Positions 3,151 to 52,157 of a stretch of 64,000 nucleotides of DNA are shown here, piece after piece. The notes under the pieces are model-generated. The model was not told the origin of the DNA and made no database searches. It saw nothing but the letters and a program-made list of their open reading frames with translations. Positions within the stretch are counted from its first letter, which is position 1, and each line of letters starts with the position of its first letter. The stretch comes from Carposina sasakii (taxonomy: Eukaryota; Arthropoda; Insecta; Lepidoptera; Carposinidae): assembly GCA_014607495.2 (NCBI GenBank), contig CP053163.1:9466716-9530715 (forward strand), read 5' to 3'. A program made the position numbers and the translations under genes.

Positions 3151-3526
3151 CAGGATGATTTTTGGTCGTCAACGTTCCCGAAAACTACGGAATCTCCTCA
3201 TCATCACGATAATTTTTCTCCATGGAAGCATACCTGGGAAGTGTCTGGTTTTCAATATATTAGGGTCCAAAGTTGAGTAAATAGACTGCGTATTTCTGCA
3301 TAAATGCACATAGACGCGCGTAGCAAGGTTTTTTCACGAGAAATAATTAATATCTGTTTATAAAAAAACTAACATAAACACTAGACACTATAAATTTCGC
3401 CCGATCAAGAAATTTCAAAAAAAAAAATAATAATAATAAATCCTGCATTTTTTTGGCATAAACTTACTTTATTTGATGTATAGAGTACGTACCCTTCGTT
3501 AATGGTGGCCACAAAAAAACATCCTG
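3151..3526 (+). mobile_element. MITE A, copy 1
   Basis: About 376 bp bounded by TA and short inverted ends (CAGGATGATTTTT / AAAAACATCCTG). Nine copies lie in the window. The interior shares GAATCTCCTCATCATCACGA, a TCCATGGAAGCATACCTGGG block and a poly-A/T patch. TA targets and CAGGRTG ends fit a Tc1/mariner-type MITE. The 40-residue frame through it (DDFWSSTFPKTTES...) recurs only because the repeat recurs. Confidence 0.85.
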
Positions 3527-7180: not shown

Positions 7181-7608
7181 CATCATTTACAGCCCTGAGA
7201 AGTCCACTGTTGGACATAGGCCTACCCCAACAACCTCCACTCCGACCGGTCGGAAGCAGCCTGCATCCAACCGAAGCCCGCAACCTTGGCCAGGTCGTCC
7301 GCCCACCTCGCGGGTGGCCTTCCCACGCTGCGCTTGCCGATACGTGGTATCCACTCTAGAACTTTCCGACTCCATCGGCCATCAGCTCTTCGAGCTATGT
7401 GCCCTGCCCATTGCCACTTCAGCTTGCTAGACCGTTCAGCTATGTCGGTGATCTTTGTACGTCTGCGGATCTCCTCATTTCTGATTCGATCACGCAGAGA
7501 GATCCCAAGCATAGCTCTTTCCATCGCTCGCTGTGGGATCCTGAGCTTTTTTATGAGGCATATAGTTAGAGACCACGTCTCGGCACCGTAGGTCATCAGT
7601 CATCACCG
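7181..7608 (-). mobile_element. 5'-truncated RTE-like LINE (family L) with target duplication
   Basis: Flanked by GGCATTCTCGTTGTAT (7165-7180) and GGCATCTCGTTGTAT (7608-7622), a target duplication with one indel. On the minus strand it runs from inside ORF2 to the (GAT)n-type tail. Confidence 0.88.
7222..7596 (-). pseudogene. LINE ORF2 C-terminal fragment (124 residues), broken
   Basis: The protein begins MTYGAETWSLT and continues with QRAMERAMLGISLRDRIRN, then RRRTKITDIA, KWQWAGHIARR, GKRSVGRPPARWADD and SDRSEWRLLG. This is the connection and C-terminal region downstream of the reverse transcriptase of RTE-like LINEs (family knowledge, recalled). The methionine is not a true start: the element is truncated at 7608. 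Against the sister copy at 4486-4641, a TAG replaces the GAG of LLGEAYVQQ, so the last dozen codons are cut off. Non-functional remnant; confident about the family group, less about the exact clade. Confidence 0.88.
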
Positions 7609-7739
7609 GCATCTCGTTGTATACAGAGCAACATACATAGTACACATCGCTGTGTACCCAGAAATGCAGCATCGCGAAGGAGATACTTTAGCCACGTTTA
7701 GCATATATGTCTAGATATTCCTACGTTTAGATATACCTA

Positions 7740-7812
7740 TCACCAACCCGTCTGCCCAGCGTGTGGCAGTAGCCTTGTGGAGTACCCTGGGGGAGGCTGA
7801 AGAAGAAGAAAA
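7740..7812 (+). mobile_element. SINE-T 3' fragment
   Basis: Contains CACCAACCCGTCTGCCCAGC and GTGGAGTACCCTGGGGGAGG followed by a GAAGAAGAA tail, as at 6830-7095, with an internal deletion. Confidence 0.6.
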
Positions 7813-9444
7813 TATACCTATATACATATATACATATAATATAGGAACACACGGTTGTGTTCCCGAAATGGAGAAGGAGATCACACAGCCTCGATTAGCA
7901 TTGCGGGGACAAAATCAAAATCACATTAAAAGTTAATTATGAGTGACAATTTCAAATCGCCTGAAAAAGTATCTACTGGATACAACACGTTCCGTACTCC
8001 AATATTATCATGCTATTCAGGTAGGTGAAGTGTGTCACGAGCTATTAAGCTATTACGTTCGGTACATTTGCCGCTCGGTGTCTGCCAGGTTACGCTTATG
8101 CGTCTCTCATGCTCATGGCTTGATTATCTGTGGCTTGTAGGTATCTATGTAGAGTCGACTGGGGAACTCAAGCATTCTCACAGGCAATACACTAGCACTA
8201 GCTAGGCTGTGGGAATTCCCTTATAATCCTGCAGACTGGTTTCTTATAGTAGTATGCCAAAGTGAATAAATTCCGAGAATACGACTGTTGCCAACCTCCC
8301 TGTGATCAGATTTAGAGTTATGGTTCTCAAAGCGTGTGTTGTGACCCCCCTATTGTAAACTTTAGACTGTAAATAATTTATCTAGGTACTTACATATTCT
8401 TTGCTATGTGCTCTTAGAAAGAAAGTTTTTATATTTTTCAATCGATTTCCTAAAATAGATTATTGATTCCACTACATTTTTGAGTTTTAATATGATTATT
8501 ACTTGTTCAAATATATTAATTGATTCTGATGGTCTGATGATATTATTGGAAGATCACACAATAATAATTATTGTCACAATAATAAATTGTCGTCTATTTA
8601 TAATGTCGTCTATTTATATTAGAATAAAAATAGTTTCGGCTTTTTGAGTAAAGCAATAATTTATAATATAGGTTTAGGTTTAAAGTTATTTCTAGTGCAA
8701 TCTAGGTGAAATTAAGCTGTTGAAGTTAGAAATCTTGTAAACTAATTCACAGTATACGAAGTAAGATTACACAAAGACAATGGGTCACCGCTGGCTGCTG
8801 GCATGCTTCTATCGTTTCATCAGTGTTTATGAAACGTTTATTACGGTTTCCTTGAGCTGTAAAATACTGGTGCTATTTCATTGAGCTGGCAGTATGCCGA
8901 TTTACTGGATACCTTATAGTTTTTTGGTCACATCCGTCTTCGTATAAAAAAGTTATTAAAATTTTTTAAATAAGACATATTACTATGTGGGTATGTAATG
9001 TAATAAAATATTTATGTAGGCAATAACATTTATAGGAATTAAACTCGTTTCTGGCATCATACAGTGCTCAATATTAAAATAGGCCATACCTGACGTTTGG
9101 TCTTAACTTGTGAAATACATAGCATAATGTTATACAAATAATGTACAAACCTACACCTAATTACTTTTAAATACATATGAGCCGAGTTGTTTCCTTAGAG
9201 CTTACATTTAACAATGACCCATAACGTGGGTTAGCAGTAATAAGTTTGGGAACCTACGAACAGGGGAATCTGGAAGATTTCTCTTGCAAGCTCGAGCCTA
9301 CAACGCATGTGTACGGTACAGCCAAATGAATTCCAACGTCTCTGCAACTGGCCAGCGAGCTGCACTGTCAATGGAGTAATTACAACGAGGAAATTATACA
9401 ATCAATGTTATATTCATATGATCCTGATTGGTCCATGCACATAA
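7813..9444. other. No recognised gene; traces of old repeats
   Basis: 7850-7930 and 8150-8230 resemble parts of repeat Q (see 61690-61835): GGTTGTGTTCCCGAAATGG and CTCAAGCATTCTCACAGGC. The rest is AT-rich without coding signal. Confidence 0.4.
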
Positions 9445-22275: not shown

Positions 22276-22376
22276 AAGACATAATTATCTAATATACCTA
22301 CTCGTACTTACTAAATTTTCGTGTAGCGGTGTTTATTACCAAACTCTTTCGAAACGGCTTGAACAATTTTTATTAA

Positions 22377-22794
22377 TTCACTATGGGTGCGCCCACCACC
22401 GGGCCCTACACCCTCCACTGACCCTCGGATCTGATAACTCATAATTGCGACAACAGGCACTTGCACTAACTACAATCGCCATGAGAAACCAGACCCGAGC
22501 ACCTAGCATGCAAGACGATACATTGCACCATTCCGAAATCAAAAACTAGATAAATAATCTACATATGTTTCGCCAACAACCGTGGCATCCTCAGGATTAT
22601 AGAAATTAATAAATTAGTAAACCACTAATTATTATGAACCTCTAAAACCCAACACATTACTTACGCAGAATTAACTATGTGCAATTATGAGTTATCAGAT
22701 CCGAGGGTCAGTGGAGGGTGTAGGGCCCGGTGGTGGGCGCACCCATAGTGAATGTTTGAACTTCCGAATTGTAACGCCTAATACAATTTCATTT
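22377..22794 (-). mobile_element. Hammerhead-bearing retroelement (family P), copy 1
   Basis: Flanked by a perfect 12-bp duplication AATTTTTATTAA (22365-22376 and 22795-22806). Sense strand is minus. From its 5' end: a leader with TTTGAACTTCCGAAT on the + strand (22753-22794), an inverted arm, a spacer, a hammerhead core (22554-22600) and a body. The 3' arm ends at CACTATGGGTGCGCC. The arms at 22379-22450 and 22680-22752 are inverted repeats rich in GGGCCC. No ORF. Target length and a fixed 3' end argue for retroposition; Penelope-like elements and retrozymes are the known groups with hammerheads and such structures. Confidence 0.72.
22554..22600 (-). ncRNA. Hammerhead ribozyme-like motif (type I)
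   Basis: Minus strand: AUAAUC, core CUGAGGA, stem II GCCA/UGGC with a 7-nt loop, GAAA, stem III ACA/UGU closed by UA, then GUA as the cleavage triplet and GAUUAU. Stem I pairs 6 of 6. CUGANGA, GAAA and NUH are all present. One extra U separates the core A9 from stem II, which is a deviation from the textbook form. Confidence 0.7.
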
Positions 22795-22806
22795 AATTTT
22801 TATTAA

Positions 22807-23427
22807 ATTGTATATTCGGTAGGTCCGAGGATAGGTCATATACTATTTTTACACCCCTTCCATGCAATAAGCGACATCCATGCGGGCGGAGCCACGGGCA
22901 ACAGCTACTTTATTTATAATATTACTCTTTCACACAATTTAGGTGGAATTTGGCAGTTATATAGCTGAAACATAAGGGTTACAATATTAAGTTGACTTAC
23001 AGTTTTGCGAATGAAGTTGCGTCTTATAATGAGTATTTTAAGTGTTTAAATATTAAATAAATTTGTAATTTTATTTGATTGGTGAATTTTATGATCGCTT
23101 TCGACTATCGTTATAGTTTGCATAAAATAACAACGAAATGCAACGCGATGTTTTTTCGCCGCGTTATCTACCCTACTTTAAATCACTAAAAAATCACTGA
23201 CCTACTTTAAATAATATTGGAAAATGTGGAATATTTCTGAAATTGAATATTGCTAAAAATAACCTCTTTTGTCAATCAATGTTATTGTTGAAAATATCTC
23301 AAGTAGAAAAGGTTTTCATTTTAATCATAGTTTCTCTACACCCACGTAGTCATGATTTACAATAATGTCAAAAGAATCTAAATTTGTTTAACTACCCACA
23401 AAAAACATTTAATACAGAGTATCAGAA
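22807..23427. other. No recognised gene
   Basis: 22870-22925 (GCGGGCGGAGCCACGGGC, then AACAGCTA) is typical of the end of another lepidopteran repeat. The rest is AT-rich. Confidence 0.4.
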
Positions 23428-23520
23428 GTATCTTCTATGCTGCTCTGGGAGTGAAAAAAAAACGTACGAGTATAATACTCATAAGGGATAAAGGCGTGAT
23501 TATATGTATGTATGTATATA
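23428..23520 (+). repeat. Interspersed repeat R4, internally deleted copy
   Basis: Starts CTTCTATGCTGCTCTGGGAG like 16688, then jumps to the GGGATAAAGGCGTGATTATA tail. The junction region has TACGAGTA. Confidence 0.7.
23465..23472. other. TACGAGTA insertion scar
   Basis: This R4 copy reads CGTACGAGTATAATACT. The sister copy at 16724 reads CGTATAATACT. The difference is exactly six bases at a TA. Confidence 0.8.
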
Positions 23521-23691
23521 TCAGAAGAGGTCTATGAAAATAGCCCACTATAGAGAATTTTTCCTTCATGATATTTCTTGGTAACCATTTGAAAGTGTGT
23601 TGTAAAGAGCTTGATTCACGCATCCTTCTACATCTAAAGTTGATTGATTTAATTGGTTGGGGTGTATTCTAGGAGTACCACTAGCACTTGA

Positions 23692-23845
23692 TGGTCGATA
23701 GAGCTGAAAAGTTTCAGAGTGGCTACTACACGCGCAAGCGCATCGTGGAATGGCCACTCGTAAGATGGACGGAAATGTATCTGCTGAATGCAGGTCGCAG
23801 TGGAGGTTGTTGGGGGATGCATATGTTCAGTGGACTTAGTGGTTA
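23692..23845 (+). mobile_element. RTE-like LINE 3' end (family L), decayed
   Basis: Order of blocks as in ORF2 end: GATGGTCGATAGAG, CGTAAGATGGACGGA and CAGTGGAGGTTGTTGGGGGA. Several frameshifts. Confidence 0.65.
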
Positions 23846-25104
23846 AAATAATCATCACGTGTCTTTTTAAAATTTCAGTATCCTAAAATTCTTCCAATTT
23901 AAATCTTAGTCGACTCTTACGAGTATGTCATACATGAAAGCAGATGCATATTATATATTGTAGTGATAATCAAACACCATATAATTAATTAGCCAAAAGT
24001 CAGTACCTAAAAAGCTAAACAAATTAAACTCCTTACAAGGTTATAATCGCGTTTCGCGTTATATTAATTAATATTCTGGTCGGGCATTGTTTGGCGCCGT
24101 GACGCAGGGCTGGATGATTGATTAGTGCACGCGGTACGTGCGCTAACGAGCTACTGTCTTGTCTTGTTAACCGACTCATTTTTACACCAAGGTAAGATGG
24201 TCTCGTAAAAGGTATTCTTATGATTTCTTATGCTATGAGCGATTTTGGAACTTTGGGCGCCATTTGATGCAGGCCTGAACGACAATTGCGCTAAATGACA
24301 ACGTTTTACCCTTTCAACGGAACGTTTTTGGTTATGGTTTAGTTTTGGTTTAGTTATCTCTATTTAACAGCGGCTCATACATTTTCAAACCTCTCCTTGT
24401 CCTTCATATTATTAGAGTTAGCTGCACTTTTGGAAACTATCGCCAAAATGGCTGATTCAGTGTTTGGTAGGTAGGACTCTCTTCTGATCAGAATGGTCCA
24501 AGCCTGAGCGCATGCGGTCCATCAGCACCAGTAGCATGCCGTCCACGACTCATCTATGTCGCGCTTTTTGTGGCGCCTAAATGTCAGAATTCGCGACAAA
24601 ATGACGTTTCACACTTCAAGCTGACATTGAAACCCGCATCGCGTCGCGCGCGACATATTACCCGCGGTTGCGAGCATGAGTTTAAAATCACGCGGGGTAT
24701 TATTGCTAATTTTGACGTTTCGTGTGACTGTATATCAATTCAATTACCGATTCAGTGTTGAACGTAACAAAGTTCATTTTACTTTCGCAATGGTAGCACT
24801 ACTTCTACGAGTTGTCCAAAAGATGAGTCGCGCGCGGGTTCCGAATCACTGTCATTGCCATGCTCGCATTTGGTGACCGGTGCTGGTGACTTGATATCGC
24901 CGCGCAAAGACGGGTTATAGTTTCCAAAAATGAACAATAACTTACGAGGCTGAATCCATATGGGCTTTACCTATGTGAGCAGTACAAAAACTGACAAAAT
25001 TCGTTAGCTGGTTCAGGAGCTATAGGTGATGTTGTCAAAAGCGTGACATGAAGTGTGCATAACGTTATGGTGTACACGGCTGTGTTCCTAACATGGGGCA
25101 GCCA
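23846..25104. other. No recognised gene
   Basis: Frames at 24570-24761 and 24676-24876 overlap each other and lack motifs. The region is less AT-rich with several CGCG words. 25070-25100 (CACGGCTGTGTTCC) belongs to repeat Q. Confidence 0.4.
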
Positions 25105-25210
25105 GAACTGTATTATCATGCATTATCATGTGGTTCCATCGGCCATTCGTGCTCTGCCTACCCCGTAAGGGATGAAGACGTGATTATATGTATGTATATA
25201 TGTATCATGG
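25105..25210 (+). repeat. R4 3' end with (TATG)n tail
   Basis: GTGGTTCCATCGGCCATTCG, CTCTGCCTACCCCGTAAGGG and GTGATTATATGTATGTATAT are in the R4 order. Confidence 0.7.
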
Positions 25211-25255
25211 AGCCCGGATATAATTTATCTACGTATTTATATAATTATGTCGCGT

Positions 25256-25495
25256 CTTCAGCCTATCGCAGTCCACTGCTGGACATAGGCCTCCCCCAGA
25301 GCACGCCACAAGGTTACTGCCATGGGGGGTTTTGCCCATAGTCACCACGCTGGGCAGGCGGATTGGTGACCGCAGACTATGTTGTCAATACGGGAGGCGC
25401 TGCTGCCCACCTCCCGGAAATTCTTAATCACGTCGTACGATACCCACGGGCAGACATGGGGTGGTACGAATTCTACTCTGCCGGCACCACGCAAA
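25256..25495 (-). mobile_element. SINE-T, copy 5
   Basis: Complement of the SINE from TCTTCAGCCTATCGCAGTCC to CTGCCGGCACCACGC. Small deletion in the GTGTGATTTT region. Directly abuts the J1 repeat. Confidence 0.85.
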
Positions 25496-25616
25496 ACTAT
25501 ACAACAGGCATAAACCTACACTAAGCATAGGGAGCGACGATACAAACTAATGCCCGTTAGTTGGCAGTTCCTTTGACGTAAAAAGCATTAGCAAAATCAT
25601 AATCGCGCTGCAGTTT
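25493..25616 (+). repeat. 124-bp repeat J, copy 1
   Basis: From AAAACTATACAACAGGC to CGCGCTGCAGTTT. Nearly identical to 28499-28625: about three substitutions and one 3-base indel. High identity implies a recent copy or an active, unclassified repeat. Confidence 0.8.
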
Positions 25617-25624
25617 ATAATTAC

Positions 25625-25715
25625 GTGCCGTTGTTTGTTACCCTTCGATACAAAGACCTTAGGGATTTTAGTGCGGGACCAGGTAAATGTGTTGTAAAAT
25701 ATGTACTTAAATATT
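25625..25715 (+). mobile_element. SINE-1 3' fragment
   Basis: GACCTTAGGGATTTTAGTG then GTAAATGTGTTGTAAAATA, the 3' half of SINE-1. Confidence 0.65.
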
Positions 25716-27244
25716 TATTCATTCCGTAACGCTATCGTCACATTGCCAAATGTCGTAGAATCTGCTTGCAGTGGAAAGTAAAAAAGTTCGTGTGCCTATA
25801 AGAGTAACCCACATTACAAAACACAATGTCAAAAGGATCACCTTATTTAGTTAATTGGAAAACAAATTGAGTTGTACACATTTTAATAACATGAAATCGA
25901 TACCTATTAACGCTAAATCCAATGAATGTTTCTATACATTTCTAGGACAAAATGTCTGCGTCGGCAATTAGAAAACAAGATGTACTGATTAAGTTAATCC
26001 TGGGAGTTAGGTCAATGTGACTTTGTACATTCGGTACACATACATTTATAGGTATTTGCCCGGGAAAATTGTATTCGTATAAAGGTGAATATACGAGGCA
26101 TATTAAATAGCACGTGGTATTACTAAACCGCTGAACATTTTGAATAATTACTTGCTAAAGTTCGTAGGTGGTCAGTTTATTTATATTATCACTGATAATA
26201 GAGACCTGAAATTGAGGGTAATGTTCTTAATATGACGTAGGCATCCGTGAGAAAGATTTTTTTTAAATTCCCACTAGTAGGAAATTAGCGAGATTTGTAA
26301 AGTTTCTGCAGACGAGGTTACCACGTGCTTAGTCCAATAGCAAGAATAAAATATTAAAATGATTAATCTTAACTAAATACCATATAGAAACATGTAATAT
26401 TCGATCGGCATACTTAATACTGCTCTAAATACTAAGCGACACGATTAATAGGATTAGGTACGTTTCGTATATTATGCGAACGTAAGTCCTTTCGCTCGAA
26501 TGAAAACGCTTAGCTGTCGATTGCAGCCACTTGAACTAAACGAAGTTTACAATATTACCCTATTCAATTTATTAGGTTATCCTATACGCTAATATTATTT
26601 ATAGTATACGGTGCTAACGGGGCCCGCTATTTTTCATCCGAGTAATATTTTTAATTTTTATTACTTCTCGGTCTTAGAATAATGATTCGTCAGAGCGGAG
26701 CGAAGATCAATCATCGATCTAAGTTCTCGGTCCTGAATTGTGGCGGATTCTTGATGATGACGACTAAAGCGTCTACTATAGGTAGGTAGGTATATGTATA
26801 ATCTTCTAAGCTAAATTTATTGTTCAGTAGTCAAGTAGTTTACCAGAATATTACCTATATGACACTCTGACTCTCACAGGGTCCGGAGAAGTTATTTACC
26901 GAACCATTTGATCGAAACAAAATGTGAAAACCAAACACAGAAAAGAAATGCTATTTAGAGAAGGACGGCACCCCGTTGCGTTGTTAATAAGATGGTATTT
27001 TAACTCGGTGTAGGACGTGCAGGGAATGGATATGAAACACCGCGATTGTGTAACACAATATGATAAATCTTTATAGCAGTTAATACTTATTGGCAAAGTT
27101 GGAGAGACGTCTTACAGCGTGGTTATTCATTCGAATGTAACTATAGCTTTATTTAATTTTAGAGGTAATCCTGGCTTTGAAGCATCATGAGAGGATCCAC
27201 CGAAATTCCCACGGGAACTAGCAAGACGGGTATTCTAAAGTATA
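25716..27244. other. No recognised gene; mostly unique sequence
   Basis: I found no copy of this segment elsewhere in the window and no convincing frame. It is the longest repeat-poor stretch on the left half. Confidence 0.4.
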
Positions 27245-27624
27245 CAGGATGATTTTTGGTCGTCAACGTTCCCGAAAACTACGGAATCTCCTCATCATCA
27301 CGATCATTTTTGTCCATGGAAGCATACCTGGGAAGTGTCTGGTTTCCAAAATATTAGGGTCCAAAGTTGAGTAAATAGACTGCGTTTTTCTGCATAAATG
27401 CACATAGACGCGCGTAGCAGGATTTTTTCACGAAAAATAATTAATATCTTTCTATAAAAAAACTAACATAAACACTAGACACTATAAATTTCGCACGATC
27501 AAGGAATTAAATTTAAAAAAAAAAAAAAAAATTTTTTCCCAGCATTTTTTTTGCCATAAACTTACTTTATTTCATGTATAGAATACGTACCCTTCGTTAA
27601 AGGTGACCACAAAAAAACACCCTG
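27245..27624 (+). mobile_element. MITE A, copy 5, followed by (TA)n
   Basis: CAGGATGATTTTTGGTCG to AAAAACACCCTG. The right TA target is extended into a (TA)n microsatellite at 27625-27645. Directly after it, 27647-27671 (GGGCGTCCACTAG) is the 3' terminus of a Helitron-like element. Confidence 0.88.
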
Positions 27625-27671
27625 TATATATATATATATATATATGACGAAATCATGGGCGTCCACTAGGT

Positions 27672-28010
27672 ACCTACTAATATTATATTGACCAAGAAGA
27701 GTAAGTACGTCTAGTTTCGAAATATTTATTTTATTTCTATCTCATAACGTGACCGGCGTGGGTGGGTCAATATGAATAATAAGTTGTTTCTTTTGACCCC
27801 GTATTGGAATGGTACAACATTTTATATTAAACCGATATCACGTTTGTAATACAGTTATTCAGGTTATTTCCGAGAATCATTATTTAGTAAAGTTAACAAT
27901 ACCGTTCAATGAAATTGGGGGTTCGTTATAAGATTATATTATTTGTGGAGTATGTGAAGAGGATTTTAATTATGTATTATACTTAATTTTTAACACAATT
28001 TTGTCGAATA
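27672..28010. other. No recognised gene
   Basis: Nothing beyond AT-rich DNA. The right end supplies the 13-bp target of the next element. Confidence 0.4.
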
Positions 28011-28023
28011 AATTGTGATTATT

Positions 28024-28294
28024 ATTATGAGAGTTTCATAATAATTAGTGGTTTACTAATTTACTAATTTCTATAATCCTGAGGATGCCACGGTTGTTGG
28101 CGAAACATATGTAGATTATTTATCTAGTTTCTGATTTCGGAATAGTGCAATGTATCGCCTTGCATGCTAGGTGCTCGGGTCTGGTTTCTCGTGGCGATTG
28201 TAGTTAGTGCAAGTGCCTGTTTTCGCAGTTATGAGTTATCAGATCCGAGGGTCAGTGGAGGGTGTAGGGCCCTGTGGTGGGCGCACCCTTAGTG
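28024..28294 (+). mobile_element. Hammerhead-bearing retroelement (family P), copy 2, 5'-truncated
   Basis: Perfect 13-bp duplication AATTGTGATTATT at 28011-28023 and 28295-28307. Unlike copy 1 it has no leader and no inverted 5' arm: it starts inside the spacer, then has the hammerhead, the body (GCATGCTAGGTGCTCGG) and the fixed 3' end GTGGGCGCACCCTTAGTG. Truncation only at the 5' side is the mark of target-primed reverse transcription. Confidence 0.78.
28073..28119 (+). ncRNA. Hammerhead ribozyme-like motif (type I)
   Basis: AUAAUC-CUGAGGA, then U, then GCCA/UGGC around a 7-nt loop, GAAA, ACA-UA-UGU, with predicted cleavage after A28113 (GUA), then GAUUAU closing stem I with six pairs. Same sequence as in copy 1 although the elements stand in opposite orientation. 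Confidence 0.72.
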
Positions 28295-28498
28295 AATTGT
28301 GATTATTTGTCAAAAACGGGTCATTACTTAGGACAGTGCTTGTAAAGGAATCGAAATATATGTTCGTAATATCTTTAAAAGCAAGCGGCTTGCCACGTGA
28401 GACTTAATAGGCTAGCTGGTGAAAATAGGTAGTGTAATTTGCACACTTTTGCCCAACCTCTGGAGGATGGTGGGCATAATTATAATATGTATGATTAC

Positions 28499-28625
28499 AA
28501 AACTATACAACAACAGGCATAAACCTACACTAAGCATAGGGAGCGACGATACAAACTAATGCCCGTTAGTTGGCAGTTCCTTTGACGTAGAAAGCATCAG
28601 CAAAATCAGAATCGCGCTGCAGTTT
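28499..28625 (+). repeat. 124-bp repeat J, copy 2
   Basis: See 25493-25616. It has CAACAACAGGC where copy 1 has CAACAGGC. Confidence 0.8.
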
Positions 28626-28628
28626 GCC

Positions 28629-28972
28629 CGCACGACACAAAAGCAAAATCATTTCTACAACCTAAGCCGCAAGGCTCACTTTAACGCAACTGGGAATCAG
28701 ATAAGCAGTACAAAGCGCACAAAGCACTGCATTGCTTCATTATATCTATGTCAACCAGGTGGACTGTATGCTGTTGTGATATGGGGCAAAGTAGCTTGGC
28801 TTGTGGGTCTAAAAGAATTTCATGCTTAGAGTAAAATGTCACATTGATACAGTTTTTGAACAGGGTTCCGCGGGGAAATGGTTGAAAAGGAAGTTGACCT
28901 GACATTGATTTGCTCAGAATGAACATGTGACAGTTCTGGCTACCCCATTCTGGGAACACAGCCGTGTATATA
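28629..28972. other. No recognised gene; ends in repeat Q piece
   Basis: The minus frame 28681-28959 is open for 92 codons but shows no domain. 28930-28968 (TTCTGGCTACCCCATTCTGG, then GAACACAGCC) matches repeat Q. Confidence 0.4.
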
Positions 28973-29393
28973 CAGGGTGTTTTTGGTTGTCAACGTTCCC
29001 GAACACTACGGAATCTCCTCATTATTATAATAATTTTTCTCCATGGAAGCATACCTGGGAAGTGTTTGGTTCCCAAGATATTAGGATCCAAAGTTGAATA
29101 AACAGACTGCATTTTTCTGCATAAATTCCTATGTGCGTAAATAAATCTTGCTATCGTGACAAATTCACGCACGTAGCTAGATTTTTTTTACGTGAAATAA
29201 TTAATATCTGTCTTTAAAAACACTAACATTAACACTGGACACAATAAATTTCGCCCGATTAAATAATAAACATTTTTTATTCTAAATAATTTACATTGTT
29301 TCCCAGCATTTTTTTTTTTTGCATAAACTTACTCTATTATCGATGTATAGAGTACGTGCCATTCGTTAAGGGTGGCAACGAAAAAACACCCTG
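28973..29393 (+). mobile_element. MITE A, copy 6 (diverged)
   Basis: CAGGGTGTTTTTGGTTGTC to GAAAAAACACCCTG, TA flanks. Carries an extra ~40 bp near 29125-29165 (a partial repeat of the GTGACAAATTCACG area). Confidence 0.82.
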
Positions 29394-29569
29394 TATATGT
29401 ATGTATAAGTAACAACCTAACAACTATTGAACTGAAAACCACGATTGCAAAGTGAAAGCAAAACATTTTTTTTCTAGAAAATTAAGTAACTCCTCTTTTT
29501 CACACGGCACAAAATTCGTGGAAGTAATGCGCATAGTATTTTGCAATTGCTGTGAATAAGTTTTAAAGT

Positions 29570-29800
29570 CTCATCATCATCTTCCTGCCCTTATCCCTTA
29601 TGGGGTCGGTGCAAGATGGTTTCTATTCAAACTCACATTGTCAAAGATTTGGCATTTGTTTTTACGGCCGGCTGTCTGCCTAACGCCAACCCTCCTCGGG
29701 TATAGCTAAGTGACAATTTTAGAAAATCCGTACATGAAAATAAATTCAGTGTTACAAGCCTGTCACTGAGGTCGAACCCACGCCTTTCGATTGAATTTTT
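29570..29800 (-). repeat. Repeat K followed by a SINE-2 fragment
   Basis: 29575-29700 (CTTCCTGCCCTTATCCCTTA, GGGGTCGG, ACGGCCGGCTGTCTGCC) is repeat K, also at 34350-34770. 29703-29795 is the inverse of SINE-2 (AGCTAAGTGACAATTTTA, then GAGGTCGAACCCACGCCTT). Confidence 0.6.
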
Positions 29801-30194
29801 AAATTTTATTATATTTATGTATTCCCGACCTATTTATCTAATTCCGACCTATATTATTTACAAGTAGTGGGTATATCTCTTACTTAAGGTCGGAGTTTCG
29901 CAATACGTCAAGCTAAAACTAGGCGACGGAAATTACGAATTTAAATTTAAATACAACGGCTCTATCGAATCATTCTATCGCGACCCTTCTCAGACCTGCG
30001 TCAATCAAAAACAAACTCAAGGGCAAAGAGAATCGGTTTTATTTCTTCTGTGAACAATGTGATTGAAAGGAGATAGAAGATAAATTGTCATTAATGATAC
30101 TGTATTTATAGGTAAATATAGGTACTTATATAGACATAAATACACGGTTGTATTTCCGAACTAGGGGAGCCAGAACTGCTTATTAATGTCATTA
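29801..30194. other. No recognised gene
   Basis: 30145-30185 (ACGGTTGTATTTCCGAAC) is a scrap of repeat Q. Otherwise no signal. Confidence 0.35.
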
Positions 30195-30437
30195 CCATAT
30201 TATAAACGCGAAAGTTTGTGAGTATGGATGGATGGATGGATGGTAGATGGATGTTTGTTACTCTTTCACGTGAAAATGGCTGGAGCGATTTTAATAAAAC
30301 TTGGTATGGAGTTAGCTGACACCCTGGATTAACACATAGGCTACTTTTTATCCCGGGGAAATATTTTTATCCCAGATAATTTCGACATATTGTATTTTCT
30401 GCAGTCTACGCGGACGAAGTCGCGAGCGTCAACAAGT
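30195..30437 (+). mobile_element. Helitron-like non-autonomous element, decayed terminus
   Basis: Starts ATTATAAACGCGAAAGTTTG with a (GGAT)n patch at 30222-30243. It contains TTTTATCCCGGGGAAAT and ends CGCGAGCGTCAACAAG instead of the usual CCACTAG. Confidence 0.75.
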
Positions 30438-30934
30438 ATAATTTGAAAAGCGATGGAAAGGTAAAATTTTCATTAAAATTGCTTTACCCCATTGAGTCTT
30501 ATAGCATTCAAAACTCTTTTAAAATCGACCTTACTTCTGAGTAGTTTTCTTATCGAGTAAATGTTAAATATCTTTAGATTCTGTATTATATGTAATGTAT
30601 ATTTTTTCCGATTTTATTTATGATGATTTCTTCATAAGCAACTTAATCTGACAAAGGGCCCATAGTAAAATAATAATGTACTGAACCATCAAAACGATAA
30701 TTTGTTTTGGCACAAATTTTCCGAACAGTATCGAAAGTTCTGGAGCGCGGCCAAGTTTTAATGAACGCATTTGTAAACGTTTCACTCGCACGTTATTATA
30801 ATGAACACGGATCCGTGCGTTACGTTAAAAGAAACGACTGGCTGTTATGAAAACGACTGTTAAAAGTTTAATGCAATATATATAAACATGATATTTTACT
30901 AGACGTTTAAGAGTATTTTTTATGTCGAAAGAAA
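30438..30934. other. No recognised gene
   Basis: AT-rich with no open frame or repeat match noted. Confidence 0.35.
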
Positions 30935-31060
30935 GCACGTAAAACTGTTAGTCCTACGCCTGATCTCTCTCCGGTCGTGTCGGCTTTCCGTTCCATCAGT
31001 GCACCCGTGTTTGCGCATACACTTGTGCGCTATAATATCTTTTCTATCTCACCACCGTAT
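30935..31060 (+). mobile_element. SINE-2, 3' half
   Basis: AAAGCACGTAAAACTGTTAG, TGATCTCTCTCCGGTCGTGT and CACTTGTGCGCTATAATATC follow the order seen at 53880-54030. The tRNA-like head is absent. Confidence 0.75.
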
Positions 31061-31227
31061 TTCGAATGTATAAACTAATTTAAAACAGATTTAAGTTCGT
31101 GATTTATCCGAATCAGACTACATTATATCAGATTTTCCTGAGAAAATAAATCATTCTTTTTTCTTGATGTAAGAATCTAAAGTTATAACAGTATAATGTG
31201 GTACTGAGATTCACAGTATAATAAACA

Positions 31228-31546
31228 TGTCGGAACAGGGGGCTGAACATGAGCTGGATTCGACATCTTGGATGGCGAGAACAATAAATTGCACTTCCGA
31301 ACAAAGATGGTTTATTCCAAATTACAATACTTTATGATTAGAACGCGAAGATAGTTCGTAGGAGGTGTGCGCTTGACCGCTGCTCGAATAGGAATGAATC
31401 CAAGGTCCGCTGCGCACGCCCCGGGAACCCATCCAAGCGCGCCAAACCTGATAGGTGGAGCCACCGTTGTTGTTGCGCTGTCTTATCCGCTAGGGGCGCT
31501 TGCGTTCTGATAAATTGTGGGTCCATATTCATGACTTCCCCCGACA
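31228..31546 (-). mobile_element. Solo LTR (319 bp) of an LTR retrotransposon
   Basis: Ends are TGTCGG on the left and CCGACA on the right, flanked by a 4-bp duplication AACA (31224-31227, 31547-31550). On the minus strand it runs TGTCGGGGGAAGTCATGAAT to CTGTTCCGACA, with a polyadenylation signal AATAAA near its 3' third (inverse of TTTATT at 31311-31316). No primer site or coding body remains. A 4-bp target and TG...CA ends fit Ty3/Gypsy more than Copia or BEL (usually 5 bp). Confidence 0.75.
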
Positions 31547-31951
31547 AACATATATTATGTTATCTAAACTTTCGTGTACATATACCTATAATACCTACCT
31601 ATATACCTATATTCACGCATGCAATTCAGAAATTAAACGTTTTACTCTCTTGGGTCTAGCGTTAAAATAAGCTTCAAAAACCAAAGTTTTATAATAAAAC
31701 TGCATCCTTAAACAAGTAAAGTCGACAACAAAATTAGAACAACCTTTATACTAACTAGAGGCTCAGCTCTCAATCAGTGCGAGCAAAGTAAACTCGGATG
31801 CACACACTCCACAACAAAATTAACGGTGCATCGACGTCACAAATGCGCCGATCGACAGCAAAGCAAGCGCCATCGACGTCGATACGGGCGCTGTCAATTA
31901 CTATCGACGTGAAGCTGTTGAATAAAAGAGATGTGATTGTGATTTTTTTCT
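31547..31951. other. No recognised gene
   Basis: The plus/minus frames at 31770-32115 overlap the start of the next element and are not coding. CATCGACGTC words repeat at 31830-31910. Confidence 0.4.
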
Positions 31952-32276
31952 CTATTGAGGGATCGCCCGCCACCGGGCCCTATACCCTCCGCCGACCCTC
32001 GGATCTGCCTACTCATGATCACGAACACAAGACACTACAGTCGCAACGAGAAGCCAGATCCAAGCACCTAGCATGCATAAATAAATACATAGCTGCTAAT
32101 CCGAAAACCAATTAAAATTTTTTAATCGACATATGTTTCGCCAACACCCGTGGCATCATCAGGATTAGTTTTCCATGTTAGTTCTATGTTAGGTAGAGGG
32201 TATAGGGCCCGGTGGCGGGCGATCCCTCAATAGAGATTTGAACTTCCGAATAGTGACGCCTGATACAATTCAATAT
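31952..32276 (-). mobile_element. Hammerhead-bearing retroelement (family P), copy 3
   Basis: 3' end (on + at left) CTATTGAGGGATCGCCCGCC. At right, the leader TTTGAACTTCCGAATAGTG and CGCCTGATACAATTC. The inverted 5' arm is short (32197-32240). Flanks GTGATTTTTTTCT and GTGAATTTTTTTTT are a plausible but imperfect duplication. Belongs to a second subfamily together with copy 4. Confidence 0.7.
32123..32167 (-). ncRNA. Hammerhead ribozyme-like motif (type I)
   Basis: UAAUC-CUGAUGA, U, GCCA/UGGC with loop CGGGUGU, GAAA, ACA-UA-UGU, GUC as the cleavage triplet, GAUUA. Relative to copies 1 and 2 the variable core base changes (CUGAUGA for CUGAGGA) and the triplet is GUC, the commonest natural one, while all stems are kept. 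Confidence 0.72.
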
Positions 32277-33081
32277 GTGAATTTTTTTTTCGTGTGAACG
32301 TATTTGATGTAGAGATTATAAAACCGAGTCATAATTTAATTTAATGTATATTTTAAAAAAAAAAAAAAAACGAGCACAGGTTATAAATGCCACGTAATAT
32401 ATTGGATGGTGTAAATATTCGATCTCAGTGAGTAGTGTAGGCACCGAATTCATTTTATGTACGGATTTTAGTGTCGTTAAATTGATACTGTTGACTATAT
32501 CTCTGACGGCACGTGAAGCTATTTTCATTACGTGCATCTCTTACCTTTTTACTATTTTAATTTTAGTGGGTAAGTACTCAAAGTATATATCTTACACCGC
32601 TTAAACTTCTTGGGAACCACTGGATAACATTTTCTAGCACACTAAGCGACATCAATACGATTAAACAGTTACTAAGCACTAAGTAATTAAGCAGTTACGA
32701 TTAAGCAGCTCCATTTTGTATCTGACTACGTGATACAGTCGCTGTCAATTACTACAACACTACTCCCTCCATGACTTTGATGAGCGCGTTTTCACGAGAC
32801 TTTGTGTGCGATAATCAACCGTATACACATTGTGTAGGGTCGGTTATACAGTACGGCGGGTAGGTACAGTTCGGTGCACAATTAGAGAGACAAAACAATG
32901 GATAATTTTGCAGTTTATGCATCAATTGAATGGACAGATGTGTTGTGAGTGACGTTTCGATCGCGCTGACGTCAATTGTTTGTAATGGCGGAAATAATTG
33001 CCAGTGGTGAAAGATAACAGTACGAATGTAGCTGTAGATGTCGGTGAACAAGCCCGTATGGTTTCTAAATCTTTGCTTTTA
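32277..33081. other. No recognised gene
   Basis: Long A-run at 32354-32370. 32430-32480 (GAATTCATTTTATGTACGG) is a SINE-2 scrap. No exon-like signal. Confidence 0.4.
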
Positions 33082-33300
33082 CATCATCATCATCATCATT
33101 TCAGTCCTGGGAAGTCCACTGCTGGACACACCGACCGGTCGAAAGCAGCCTGCATCAAACCGACGCCAGCGACCTTGGCTAGGTCGTCCGTCCATCTCGC
33201 GGGTGGCCTTCCCACGCTGCGTTTGCCAGTACGTGGTATCCACTCTAGAACTTTCCGGCTCTATCGGCCATCAGTTCTTCGAGCTATGCGCATCAGACAT
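33082..33300 (-). mobile_element. RTE-like LINE 3' end (family L), internally deleted
   Basis: (ATC)n tail complement, then inverse of GGAAGGCCACCCGCGAG-type coding. The GCCTCCCCCAACAACC segment is missing between GGACA and CCGACCGG. The plus-strand frames at 32998-33327 are shadows of it. Confidence 0.75.
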
Positions 33301-34349
33301 CATAATTTAATCATACCTTCAGAGTAATCTTATTTAGTAATCTAGAAATTTCTACTCCAAAATAACTCAACTACTGTTAAATCCAGCAATTTTAGAGCTT
33401 ATTTTAACTAAGTACGAGCTAATGCTTATTACGTATGTTTACGTATAGCTCCAAACAACGTTGACATTACAATTTAATGCCACGACCACAATACGCCTCT
33501 GAAATGTGTCACTTGAACGCAAGTGTGTTCTGTGCCTTACAGATTGAGAACACGCAATTGATGAATATCAAAGAAGAGGTGCTATATTTATTCTAGACCT
33601 AGGAAATCTAGACTATACAGCGCAGTATGAAACGATCACAGGTTTACGCCTTCTACCATAGTCTACCCTTCTGCAACCGCGATACTATGGTCAATTTTGA
33701 CCGTCACACGTAAAAACCTAAACGTAAAATTGGCCCTACCTGTTCCTTTCTCTCGCAGTTATTTGTCTTAGTAATGGAGAGGGATAGACCTGGGGCTCTA
33801 CTCTGAAATGCCGCTTTCGAATCTTTCGGTCCGACCGAAGCCCGACCGAATCGAAGCCTTTGACAGCCTTTGACCCTACTACGAAATTGCTTCGGATTCA
33901 TTCATCTGAGTTCACAACTCATTCGGAACCATAGAGAATAATTCACATTGACTAATATTATAAGTTTTCTATTATCTAGCCTTATACCTGTCAAATAGAG
34001 TTCGATCGGACCGAATGAAAAAACGGCGCGACTGATCCGATCGAAGGAAGTTCGTAGTAGGAAACACCTCGATATTCGGCCGATACTTCGTTTATCGTCA
34101 CTTCAGAGTAGACCTCCTGATTAAGTTAACGTTTAAGTGCGACGGTCAGAATCGCCCATTTTGCTGTCTATGAGCATTCGCTGTAAGGCCAGATCCTTGT
34201 TATTCTTACTTCATGTTACATGACGCATGCATGCAATGTGTAATTTAGTCTACAGTAATTAAGATTGTAGTTATAATAATAATAGTTTGGTTTATGACAC
34301 TGTGTAAAATGTAAGATTACTTAATGTAAGGTCGTTTTATAAGTCATGT
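33301..34349. other. No recognised gene
   Basis: 33830-34090 contains several CGGTCCGACCGAA / TCGGACCGAATG strings that are partly inverted with each other, perhaps an old palindromic element. No domain in the 65-residue frame at 33704-33901. Confidence 0.4.
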
Positions 34350-34770
34350 AATCATCATCTTCCTGCACTCATCTCATTATTTATATCATCATCATCAGCC
34401 TATTGCAGTCCACTGCTGGACGTAGGCCTCCCCGAGGGCACGCCACAAGACTGCCATGGGGGTATTTGCCCATAGTCATCACGCTGGGCAGGCGGGTTGA
34501 TGACCGCATTTTGTATTTTGGACTATGTTGTCAACACGGGAGACGCTGCTGACCATCTACCAGAAACCCTTAATCGCCTCGTACGATACCCATGGGCAGA
34601 CACGGGGTGGTACGAATCCTACTCTGCTGGCACCACGCGGCACGCGGCCATTATTTATATGGTCGGCGTAATATAGTTTCTTTCGAAATTCATATTGCCA
34701 AAGACTTGGCTTTTTTTTCACCCGGTCTGTGATTGGGATCGAACCCATGCCTTTCGACTGAAAGACTCAA
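34350..34770 (-). repeat. Repeat K split by a SINE-T insertion
   Basis: The left piece 34355-34386 and the right piece 34649-34765 are the two halves of the repeat seen intact at 29570-29700. The right piece goes on to a SINE-2-like string (GGGATCGAACCCATGCC). Confidence 0.65.
34387..34648 (-). mobile_element. SINE-T, copy 6, with 12-bp target duplication
   Basis: CATTATTTATAT lies at 34375-34386 and 34649-34660. Between them is the full SINE: (ATC)n tail complement to GGCACCACGCGGCACGCGGC. This fixes the 5' end of the family. Confidence 0.9.
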
Positions 34771-34920
34771 AAGTAGTCATTTTGGTCGATTCTGACAGTC
34801 ACTTAAACGTAAACTTAATCTTACGAGTAGTCATAATATAAATGGCGATATTTGTATCTTTTTCACAATTACAAAGGTTAACAGATTTCAATGAAATTGA
34901 TATAAACAACGTATGATTGA

Positions 34921-35109
34921 TATAGACCTCGCCGGACTTTCACCGATCAAATTGGTGAAATTCTAAAGAAAGGTCAGGTCAAGAGTACCCTAAACCGACG
35001 AGCGTGCATGAAGAATATCATGAAAGTAGATGAAGCGAAAGAGGTGTGTGTGGATCGTAGCAAATGGAGATCCGTGATCTCTGCCTACCCCTCCGGGAAA
35101 GAGGCATGA
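34921..35109 (+). pseudogene. LINE ORF2 C-terminus (62 residues)
   Basis: Frame: YRPRRTFTDQIGEILKKGQV, then KSTLNRRACMKNIMKVDEAK, EVCVDRSKWRSVISAYPSGK and EA before TGA. This is a conserved C-terminal tail of a lepidopteran LINE ORF2, placed after the reverse transcriptase (recalled, not searched). A stop lies just upstream in frame, so nothing longer is readable. A degenerate sister lies at 63405-63545 and the last codons reappear at position 1-40. The tail shares its final ~40 bases with repeat R4. Confidence 0.8.
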
Positions 35110-35130
35110 TTATGTATGTATGTATGATAT
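34921..35130 (+). mobile_element. 3' end of an RTE-like LINE (family M)
   Basis: Last 62 codons of an ORF2, stop, then GATTATGTATGTATGTATG. The 5' side is truncated; no clear target duplication was found. Confidence 0.8.
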
Positions 35131-35530
35131 AAACAGTATCATAAAGAACACAGGTTTTTTATCACGAAAAAATATCTTATATCTTTAATATCTTTCGAAG
35201 AAAGAGTTACCAAAGAGAGCGTAAAAAAACCTTCGCATGTCAAATCTATGTCAAAATATAGCCATTAATTTCCCCATTTTAGGAACGTTGGTACAGTCGT
35301 CAACAAAACGGGTCATGTAGGATTGACACGAAGGAGGTGGCCTAACAACATCCTCACTTATATTATAAACGCTAGCGTGACTGCCTGTTTATCACGCTTT
35401 TACGCCAAAACTAGCAATTTATTTGAAATTTGGTAAAAAGATAGATTGTATAGGTAATATAGCCCAAAGGCGGATATTAGGTCATTTATTAATGCGAAAA
35501 GAGCGTCATATGTAGTTCAAGTTTGTCCTG
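35131..35530. other. No gene; Helitron 5' piece
   Basis: 35355-35480 starts TATATTATAAACGCTAGCG and resembles the 5' part of the Helitron-like elements (compare 62450). It stops before the 3' terminus. Confidence 0.4.
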
Positions 35531-35789
35531 GGGGCCAATTCTTGAAAAGTCTCCAGTTGGAACGAAGCCGAAACGGAACCGTTGTGGACTCTCAGAACAA
35601 AGAAATAATTATTTTACGGTGACGTAATTAGACACTTTTTAGCACGAGACAGATATTTGATTTTATTCTGTCATACTCGCGACCGATACGTGTCAAACTA
35701 TACCTTATTACATTACCTTAAAACACCGCGTTTCGTTAACGGTTCGTTAGTGGTTGTGTTTCGGCTCAAAAATTTTCAAGAATTGCCCC
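35531..35789. mobile_element. Harbinger-like MITE (family E), copy 1
   Basis: Left GGGGCCAATTCTTGAAAAG, right complement TTTTCAAGAATTGCCCC, flanked by CTG on both sides (35528-35530, 35790-35792). A CTG 3-bp target and GGG-start ends fit PIF/Harbinger. Interior inverted pair CGAAGCCGAAACGGAACCG and CGGTTCGTTAGTGG. Confidence 0.75.
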
Positions 35790-36086
35790 CTGAGCTGATG
35801 CGGTACTACTCTAAAATATCTATATCAGCTGCATCCTTTCGTGCATTTCATAAGAGTCGACTAAGCTAAGTACTCGGGCATTCTCTCAGGCGATCAACTT
35901 AACTCAATTACATCTCTATTGAGGGATCGCCCGCCACCGGGCCCTATACCCTCCGCTGACCCTCGGATCTGTCTACTCATGATCACAAGAACACAAGACA
36001 CTACAGTCGCAACGAGAAGCCAGATCCAAGCACCTAGCATGCAACCATAAATACATAGCTGCTAATCCGAAATCCAATTAAAATTT

Positions 36087-36137
36087 TAATCGACATACGA
36101 GTATGTTTCGCCAACACCCGTGGCATCATCAGGATTA
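36087..36137 (-). ncRNA. Hammerhead ribozyme-like motif with enlarged stem III
   Basis: As at 32123-32167 except that stem III reads ACAUA-CUCG-UAUGU: six bases (TACTCGTA word, 36096-36103) were gained at the UA loop. The result would be five pairs with a 4-nt loop in place of three pairs with a 2-nt loop. Confidence 0.68.
36096..36103. other. TACGAGTA insertion scar inside the hammerhead
   Basis: CGACATACGAGTATGTTTCG here. CGACATATGTTTCG at 32127-32140, and the mirrored arm of this same element (36191-36203) also lacks the six bases. Confidence 0.85.
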
Positions 36138-36579
36138 GTTTTCCATGTTAGTTCTATCTACCGAACCAACTAACTCATTTAGGAGTTGGCGAAACATATG
36201 TCGATTAAAATTTTAATTGGATTTCGGATTAGCAGCTATGTATTTATGGTTGCATGCTAGGTGCTTGGATCTGGCTTCTCGTTGCGACTGTAGTGTCTTG
36301 TGTTCGTGATCATGAGTAGGCAGATCCGAGGGTCAGCGGAGGGTATAGGGCCCGGTGGCGGGCGATCCCTCAATAGAGATTTGAACTTCCGAATAGTGAC
36401 GCCTGATACAATTCAATATCAATTACATCTGTCCCCACTAGGGTAAACGTGGTTGTGTGATCGCCTTTGTGATTTAGCTCTGGCTACCCCATTTCGGGAA
36501 GCATACATACATATACACATATACATACAGCATACATACGTGTATGAAAATTTGTATTAAGATGTATGATCATAACATT

Positions 36580-37154: not shown

Positions 37155-37292
37155 TTTACATAGACTAAAATAATTTATTATAAAATTATTAATAAAGAAA
37201 ATGGAAAAAAATCTTCACCCGAGTGGGACTCGAACCCACGACCTCTGCATTCCATGGCAGTGCTCTTACCAACTGAGCTACCGGGTCAATAT
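37155..37292 (-). mobile_element. tRNA-like SINE-4, copy 2 (most complete)
   Basis: Minus strand: GACCCGGTAGCTCAGTTGGT, AAGAGCACTGCCATGGAATG, GTGGGTTCGAGTCCCACTCG. D arm and T arm are good and the acceptor pairs 6 of 7. The anticodon stem does not close with a 7-base loop. The tail GAAGATTTTTTCCATTTTC then TTTATTAATAATTTTATAAT is shared with copies 1 and 3. Confidence 0.72.
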
Positions 37293-50992: not shown

Positions 50993-51593
50993 TACAAAAG
51001 TGCGAAAATATTTTAATTCAACTTAAATAATAATACCAAGTTAAAAAAAGTCTAAAACTAAGTTAGCAAAGTTTCGAACTCGGGTAGCCCATTCCAGGTG
51101 TCGCTCCTGATTGTACTTGAATTGAGTTTGTGTTGCTGATTTTCTGTTTTGTTTGTTATTCGAAACCCCCCATTCTCCCAACGTATAATGGGGGAGTTGG
51201 GAACTAGTTCGAGAGTTTGTGTTGACGCGGCGATAAATTTTAATTACGATAATTTTAACTAGTTCATTGCTTTGCATTTTGTTCTGAAGGTAAATTATTT
51301 ATGTTTTTTAGCCCCACACAAAAAAACTGTCGGCAACTCAATTATATTAGGTATTTTTATCAAGAGTAAAATAAAAAATAGAAATTTAACATTCAATTAT
51401 AAAAAAAAATCATTTGAGGTAATCTTATCTCCGTTTCATTTTATAGTAAATTAAAAAATATCTCTTATCTTAAAAGAAATTTTACGTTCATATAATTTAC
51501 ACCCACTCCGAACAGTGTTTAGTTGAAGCTTATCTTACAAAATATAATATGAAACAACGTGCTTATTACAGATTTCTAGTTGAGGATTAGAAC
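50993..51593. other. No recognised gene
   Basis: 51165-51205 has a small near-palindrome (CCCCCCATTCTCCCAACG / CGTATAATGGGGGAGTTGGG). Nothing coding. Confidence 0.4.
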
Positions 51594-52157
51594 GTGCTGA
51601 GCTTTGAGAGCTTAATATTGTACTTTATTGTGAACCTAGGCGTCCTATCCAAGGTTAGGCGGTATTTTACTCCACAGCAACTATTGGCGCTATATAAAGC
51701 GCCAGTTCACCCTTGTATGGAGTACTGCTGCCACCTTTGGGATGGATCAGCTAAATATCAGCTAGCCGCACTGGACTCGGTGGAAAAACGGGCAATAAAA
51801 CTTATTGGAGATGAAACCGTAGCAAATTCGAAACTCCAGGACCTGACCCACCGCCGTAAAATTGCTGCCTTGTCAGTGTTTTACAGGATACACTTTGGAG
51901 AGTGTGCGTGGGAACTTCACAATGCAGTTCCACCAGCCCCTTTTCACCCTCGGGATACTAGACGCAGACTAGCGTATCACCCTTATGTTGTTGATATCCC
52001 ACCCATCCGCACCAAACGTTATGCTAACTCATTTGTAATGCGAACAGCTAAGGAGTGGAATGCACTTCCTGCCGATGTATTACCCGAGCACTACAACATT
52101 GGTCTCTTCAAAGCTAGAGTGAATATGCACTTTCTAGGCAAACATGTACCACTCTAG
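51594..52157 (+). pseudogene. Reverse transcriptase C-terminus of a Jockey/CR1-group LINE (187 codons)
   Basis: Family-like sequence begins near residue 15: LGVLSKVRRYFTPQQLLALY, KAPVHPCMEYCCHLWDGSAK, YQLAALDSVEKRAIKLIGD, HRRKIAALSVFYRIHFGEC, TKRYANSFVMRTAKEWNALP and LFKARVNMHFLGKHVPL at the end. This is the post-catalytic thumb/C-terminal region of LINE ORF2; the YxDD box and the endonuclease lie upstream in an intact element and are absent. The first ~14 codons are probably flanking DNA, so the methionine is accidental. It is uninterrupted for about 170 codons and hence relatively young. The clade cannot be settled without a search. Confidence 0.87.

Follow-up and report, generated by a model that had tools for sequence, protein, structure and literature searches.

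A probable Penelope-type repeat family with hammerhead-like cores in the lepidopteran Carposina sasakii

Minimal type I hammerheads in the pseudo-long terminal repeats (pLTRs) of Penelope-like elements (PLEs) were reportedly described by Cervera and de la Pena in 2014 and by Lunse et al. in 2017, and action as dimers is said to have been proposed for them. We analysed a repeat family in a stretch of 64,000 nt from Carposina sasakii (assembly GCA_014607495.2, contig CP053163.1, positions 9,466,716 to 9,530,715, forward strand; hereafter the window), four copies of which (c1 to c4) carry hammerhead-like cores of this kind. Published elements are described here from excerpts of the respective papers. 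Such excerpts mention PLE hammerheads without helix III and the proposal that PLE hammerheads act as dimers, and PLEs in Lepidoptera are already in print (PMC8848866).

The closest described systems are two PLEs and a group of retrozymes. The Penelope of the rotifer Adineta vaga has inverted pLTRs with a 31-bp tail on one of them, target site duplications of 8-10 bp and solo pLTRs; unrelated sequence has been captured between its pLTRs, and a self-priming route was proposed (PMC3846280). The purified protein of PAc (Poseidon, Anolis carolinensis) cuts both strands at AT-rich sites. Reverse transcription of PAc begins inside the RNA, with no difference in start site seen between the two strands, and the stretch between two start sites corresponds to the 30-40 bp tail. 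No cleavage by the PAc hammerhead was seen when the PLE protein was absent, and hammerhead mutants remained able to insert in vitro (PMC11167929). Animal non-LTR retrozymes are non-coding units of ~300 bp with type I hammerheads (PMC7229834).

By its sequence features, the family probably (at about 0.8) belongs to the PLE type, as a young lepidopteran representative that carries a minimal type I hammerhead and is present as solo pLTRs or as a non-autonomous derivative. No earlier description of hammerheads in a lepidopteran repeat was found among the papers listed in literature searches, as judged by titles and the beginnings of abstracts; PMC10886601, one of those listed, contains both terms.

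Hammerhead-like cores and their conservation

All four cores share one order of parts: stem I, CUGANGA, an extra U, stem II (GCCA and UGGC around 7 nt), GAAA, stem III, UH and the second strand of stem I. The hammerhead elements C3UGANGA9...G12AAA, stems I and II and the UH triplet stand in their proper order at 4 of 4 sites. Both strands of the window were scanned for this architecture, defined as CTGANGA, no more than one extra base, a stem II of 4 or more pairs, GAAA, the pair A15.1-U16.1 with one further stem III pair, H17 and stem I of at least 5 pairs, with G-U permitted in stems I and II. The scan returned exactly four sites, each with one extra base, and a single site in total from 300 dinucleotide-preserving shuffles of the window. 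Inspection of the sequence and the scan agree with the four sites and coordinates of the original prediction, made from the letters of the window. Its description of them as hammerhead-like stands as well, since the layout is far above chance and the ribozyme has diverged less than the remaining element between subfamilies.

This last comparison rests on two groups of copies. Identity is 96% between c1 and c2, 94% between c3 and c4 and ~75% between the groups; because the members of each group are so alike, the four copies provide only one independent comparison. Between c2 and c3, 3 of 45 ribozyme positions differ, against 50 of 168 in the element outside it (Fisher one-sided p 0.0006), and the remaining three subfamily pairings, with 44 or 45 ribozyme positions, give p 0.0004-0.0016. 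The three differences fall on N7 (G/U), one loop II base and H17 (A/C), all of them positions where change is allowed. Among sliding segments of 45 columns of the c2-c3 alignment (n=192), the lowest number of differences (2) is found in the segment that begins with the ribozyme, six columns of which are gaps in both rows. The changes at N7 and in the triplet (GUA/GUC), which had been predicted, are thus real, but they amount to one independent comparison. The inner five pairs of stem I, UAAUC/GAUUA, are the same in c1-c4, and a sixth pair (A-U) is present in c1 and c2, at the place of a non-pairing C and A in c3 and c4. The paired change of stem I that had been proposed is therefore absent; c1 and c2 merely gain one outer pair.

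In none of the four cores is A9 directly joined to the first pair of stem II, one extra U being inserted in 4 of 4. A scan of metagenomic viral contigs for the pattern with this U (CTGATGA-T-GCC...GGCGAAAC) gave 19 stretches. The layout is complete in 10 of them, nine as type III and one as type I, and incomplete in the other nine; among 20000 controls with letter-shuffled flanks, 58 pass as type III and 184 as type I. The type III layouts are those of L002, L003, L004, L006, L012, L013, L016, L017 and L018 (L numbers denote loci retrieved by our searches). In several of them (e.g. L002-L004) what looks by eye like a ribosome-binding site with a start codon follows closely downstream. Since six of the nine (L002, L003, L004, L013, L016, L018) share a near-identical ribozyme, the independent cases with the U number about four or five. 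The motif without the U occurs on at least 120 viral contigs, and 19 type III and 78 type I layouts are present among 134 matches listed; with more matches lacking the U, its insertion is a minority form. Given the 10 complete layouts, hammerheads may tolerate it. In excerpts of a survey of core variants, a U-U mismatch where stem II begins is reported as tolerated. The extra U, named at the outset as the main doubt, is weakened as an objection by the predicted layouts that share it, but it is not removed. The shared U also suggests that search models with a strict junction of A9 and stem II may leave real hammerheads undetected.

The stem III segment of c1-c3 is ACAUAUGU, a perfect 8-nt palindrome that could pair between two molecules, and c4 has a five-pair hairpin at this place (ACAUA-CUCG-UAUGU). 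The tiny stem III of the original prediction thus does not hold for c4. The palindrome would suit a dimer; double-hammerhead dimers have estimated energies of -18.8 to -23.1 kcal/mol, and monomers of -3.5 to -6.6 kcal/mol.

The dispersed unit and its insertions

The host genome (399 Mb, 31 contigs) was searched with a 235-bp piece of c2, and 40 of 602 candidates were scored. At least 43 matches were found, including the window copy, 40 of them at >=97% over the whole or nearly the whole query, which supports the assignment of the cores to a repeat family. Its lepidopteran origin is supported by the open reading frame (ORF) at 51591-52154, which has 43 protein matches; 19 of 19 with an organism name belong to genera that we take to be Lepidoptera. 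Outside the host, no match to the element was found with three patterns in viral contigs and two patterns in prokaryotic genome contigs.

The anatomy of insertions was studied in 37 copies, namely c1, c2 and 35 of 39 other near-full-length genomic copies (20 with ~4 kb flanks and 15 with 0.5 kb flanks), a set that leaves out older copies and copies without the hammerhead region. The choice of copies is independent of tails, because the c2 query ended at the untailed 3' end. The carrier of the cores is a dispersed unit of ~293 or ~335 bp, young and often arranged head-to-head.

The main arm begins at unit positions 1-6 in 17 of 37 copies, a count to be read with the trimming of the reference unit at this point, beyond which the alignment is unable to extend. 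Two observations suggest that this 5' start is genuine: in some copies (for example L149, L153, L165, L178) the other arm begins within 1-3 nt of it, and in others (L170, L172) a flanking repeat sits there. The unit begins with AGGTGTAAGT, which resembles a 5' splice site (e.g. ~3946-3957 of L167, hammerhead orientation). The 3' end lies at ~293 or ~335, and the 42 nt between these ends form a tail; six tailed copies diverge after the same CATTTA.

Eighteen copies have two arms in head-to-head orientation, 16 have a single arm and three are complex (L150, L162, L167); two of the two-arm copies (L157, L161) contain an extra internal piece. One arm is shortened to a varying degree. Exactly one end is tailed (335) and the other ends at 293 in 18 of 18 two-arm copies. 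The single-arm copies are untailed (~293) in 15 of 16 cases and end at 335 in L174. Two further insertions in L158 have one tail each, and so do c3 and c4 of the other subfamily. If the ends were tailed independently, the probability of one tail in 18 of 18 copies would be at most 4e-6, or 8e-6 with L159 and L171 merged. These two seem to represent a single duplicated insertion, and L176 and L177 another (same flanking repeat). As to whether arms are copied from each other, 15 two-arm copies were compared: of 763 positions shared by the arms of one insertion, 16 differ (L179 accounts for half of these), and of 12820 positions shared between different insertions, 290 differ.

Flanking repeats score >=11 in 23 of 37 copies, 12 of them exactly 12; under slightly different scoring, 27 of 2000 random pairs of longer flanks reach 11. 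The target duplications are mostly of 12-13 bp, and many of the sites are AT-rich by eye. The core motif was found in 20 of 20 genomic loci with ~4 kb flanks.

The family accordingly combines three traits of published PLEs, and the link to Penelope, suggested earlier from the short stem III, is supported by its tail, head-to-head arms and target duplications. Its pLTR-like units, in the two-arm copies, lie head-to-head with one tail, which at 42 nt slightly exceeds the published 30-40 bp; it has short target duplications at AT-rich sites; and a minimal type I hammerhead lies within the unit, both in the window copies and in the genomic loci.

Two loci have a more complicated structure. In L158:5453-6516, the arms of a two-arm insertion are separated by 419 bp that are 100% identical, inverted, to 7605-8023, 1.4 kb away; the insert encodes part of a Cys-rich ORF and looks like a case of Penelope-mediated capture. 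In L162 (~3082-4477, hammerhead orientation) there are five pieces of the unit in mixed orientation, including two cores 449 nt apart.

The window copies are listed in Table 1. The inverted arm of c4 (plus strand) contains the 3' half of the hammerhead only. Positions 37215-37287 of the window (minus) are tRNA-like (Rfam tRNA, 48.7 bits; ARAGORN without a clear anticodon) and may be a tRNA or the head of a tRNA-derived short interspersed nuclear element (SINE).

Table 1. Hammerhead cores, elements and flanking repeats in the window
Feature	Positions	Strand	Remarks
Hammerhead core, c1	22554-22600	minus	C3 at 22594; 6-bp stem I, N7=G, H17=A, palindromic stem III ACAUAUGU
Hammerhead core, c2	28073-28119	plus	C3 at 28079
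Hammerhead core, c3	32123-32167	minus	C3 at 32162; 5-bp stem I, N7=U, H17=C
Hammerhead core, c4	36087-36137	minus	C3 at 36132; 5-bp stem III, CUCG loop
Element c1	22376-22795 (ends to within 1-2 nt)	minus	tailed inverted arm and untailed arm, head-to-head
Target duplication of c1, 3' side	22365-22376		TTAATAAAAATT
Target duplication of c1, 5' side	22795-22806		
Element c2	28024-28294	plus	single untailed arm from unit position 26
Target duplication of c2, 5' side	28011-28023		13 bp
Target duplication of c2, 3' side	28295-28307		13 bp
Element c3, second subfamily	31949-32276	minus	tailed inverted arm and untailed arm
Flanking repeat of c3	31938-31952 / 32276-32291		imperfect, A-rich
Element c4, second subfamily	35916-36418	minus	long tailed inverted arm ~36182-36418, untailed arm ~35916-36157
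Target duplication of c4, 3' side	35904-35915		
Target duplication of c4, 5' side	36419-36430		

Opposing evidence, alternatives and a possible route of insertion

Several observations weigh against a PLE-type family with a working hammerhead. No PLE enzyme gene could be linked to the unit within limited domain searches. A GIY-YIG family search of the host genome, with 150 of 424 candidates scored, gave at least one match. Pfam comparison of 10 of the 35 window ORFs (>=90 aa) and of 10 of 33 ORFs (>=140 aa) around 20 genomic copies gave neither a reverse transcriptase nor GIY-YIG. Flanking repeats score <11 in 14 of 37 copies, and the usual duplications of 12-13 bp exceed those of the rotifer element (8-10 bp). 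As to constraint, there are no compensatory changes between the two subfamilies, the inner five pairs of stem I and stem II being invariant, and the close genomic copies are too similar to be informative: variant cells number 2 of 940 in the ribozyme and 16 of 3540 in the region after it in 20 such copies. The survey of core variants, in the excerpts available, reports insertions at other places of the core, some of which lower activity, and it rejected hits mispaired beside the core, many of these rejects lying in repeats.

Searches with covariance models and folding belong to the same side. A hammerhead match at a relaxed threshold, the check named with the original prediction, was not obtained: the hammerhead families of Rfam gave no match in the whole window at E <= 10, and RAGATH-1-hammerhead reached 15.9 bits (E 0.77) on a 66-nt stretch of c4; the window hammerheads do not reach the gathering cut-off. 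Neither do 12 viral-contig loci with the U-insert motif or seven with the canonical motif, all picked by motif and containing putative ribozymes; in L045 (6 kb), with a canonical-looking hammerhead, hammerhead families score 19-24 bits, below the cut-off. The Rfam result is weak evidence, because canonical-looking hammerheads of viral contigs also stay below gathering. In folding, the ensemble is more stable than the monomer hammerhead by 4.1-5.8 kcal/mol, and the predicted minimum is neither the monomer hammerhead nor, in cofolding, the double-hammerhead dimer. The monomer stretches fold no better than their shuffles (z-scores -0.22 to -0.51), and the G found at N7 in c1 and c2 gives rise to a competing hairpin (AUCC/GGAU). 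Thermodynamic folding was rejected as support, since z-scores are near zero and cofold minima are not double hammerheads.

These folding results would be expected if the PLE sequence were real and the motif an inherited, inactive one, prevented from cleaving by its additional U, by the weak fold of the monomer and by the hairpin that competes with it. The lowered activity with some core insertions is consistent with this explanation, as is the Anolis PLE hammerhead, for which no cleavage was seen without the PLE protein and whose mutants insert in vitro (PMC11167929). We regard an inactive motif as possible, though doubtful: the ribozyme has diverged less than its surroundings, with all three changes at permitted positions, complete layouts with the extra U occur elsewhere on viral contigs, and stem III is palindromic in three copies and of five pairs in the fourth.

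A retrozyme of the animal non-LTR type is unlikely. Here the transcripts of tandem ribozyme repeats would be cleaved into monomers, which would become circular and then be reverse transcribed, and a ~300-bp unit of the low-GC type with a type I hammerhead would fit, as would target duplications that, where present in retrozymes, exceed 4 bp (PMC7229834). Close copies do exist, with three plus-strand cores within 4.7 kb in L158 and the pair of cores in L162; however, 34 of 37 copies are single-arm or head-to-head and not in tandem arrays. The 5' end of the copies differs from the cleavage site, and from there each copy continues across a hammerhead that is uncut. The hammerheads of invertebrate retrozymes, according to excerpts of the literature, can in most cases form a stable helix III. 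Very improbable is a foldback or MITE-like (miniature inverted-repeat transposable element) DNA transposon with a chance likeness to a hammerhead: perfect inverted arms of 73 nt in c1 and 112 nt in c4 recall one, but 16 of 37 copies have a single arm (c2, L158, L160, L170 and L172 still with 12-13 bp flanking repeats), the outer ends are unequal by the 42-nt tail in 18 of 18 copies, one arm is variably shortened, and the motif is far above chance.

For a family of the PLE type, we propose that the unit RNA begins at a defined 5' end and that an enzyme of the PLE type makes staggered cuts, ~12-13 nt apart, in AT-rich target DNA. Reverse transcription would begin internally on the RNA, at either of two sites separated by 42 nt, giving units of ~293 or ~335. 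If both DNA ends were primed, each from a different site, head-to-head arms with one tail would result. The hammerhead could cleave after GUC or GUA, mainly as a dimer via the palindromic stem III, and c4, whose stem III has 5 bp, might do so as a monomer. The enzyme, the order of priming, RNA cleavage and its role are what we infer. The strict one-tail rule is not predicted by the PAc paper, because the start sites there are alike on both strands. Because the copies retain an uncut hammerhead, cleavage in cis is not needed to make genomic copies, which would be in line with the result for the Anolis PLE.

More tentatively, the family might be a SINE-like parasite of a PLE, of ~300 nt, that has no parts beyond a pseudo-LTR and the hammerhead in it and whose two-arm insertions record paired priming. 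Each target strand would then be primed from a different fixed site of the RNA, and exactly one end would be tailed.

Comparison with known systems

PLE integration and the role of the hammerhead are described as open questions in excerpts of the PLE literature. The lepidopteran family offers a ready set for comparing two-site priming with self-priming, because its copies are young, numerous and sharply delimited and its two-arm insertions keep the one-tail rule in 18 of 18 cases.

Unlike this family, animal non-LTR retrozymes form tandem repeats and circular RNA, and no tail is mentioned in the excerpts of PMC7229834. PAc is closer. It shares a hammerhead at the start of the pLTR and ORF, AT-rich targets and internal start sites with the tail between two of them. 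It differs in its known protein, its tandem copies and the need of its hammerhead for that protein in order to cleave. It also has an in-frame start codon at stem II, whereas the frame of the ATG present in all four window cores soon stops (by eye).

The pLTRs of Adineta vaga resemble the present units in their head-to-head arrangement with one tail, short target duplications, solo units and capture of unrelated sequence. They differ in the tail, 31 bp against 42 nt here, and in the open frame, none of which was found for the units examined; the word ribozyme does not appear in the main text of PMC3846280.

The minimal hammerheads of PLEs, as represented in citing papers, differ from the window cores in two respects, the extra U between A9 and stem II and the five-pair stem III of c4, and their pLTRs surround an open frame, whereas the units examined here are solo or head-to-head. 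The two are alike in the type I order and in a helix III that is missing or very short. The kind is already known; the lepidopteran family itself was not met in the papers searched, and it does not amount to a new class.

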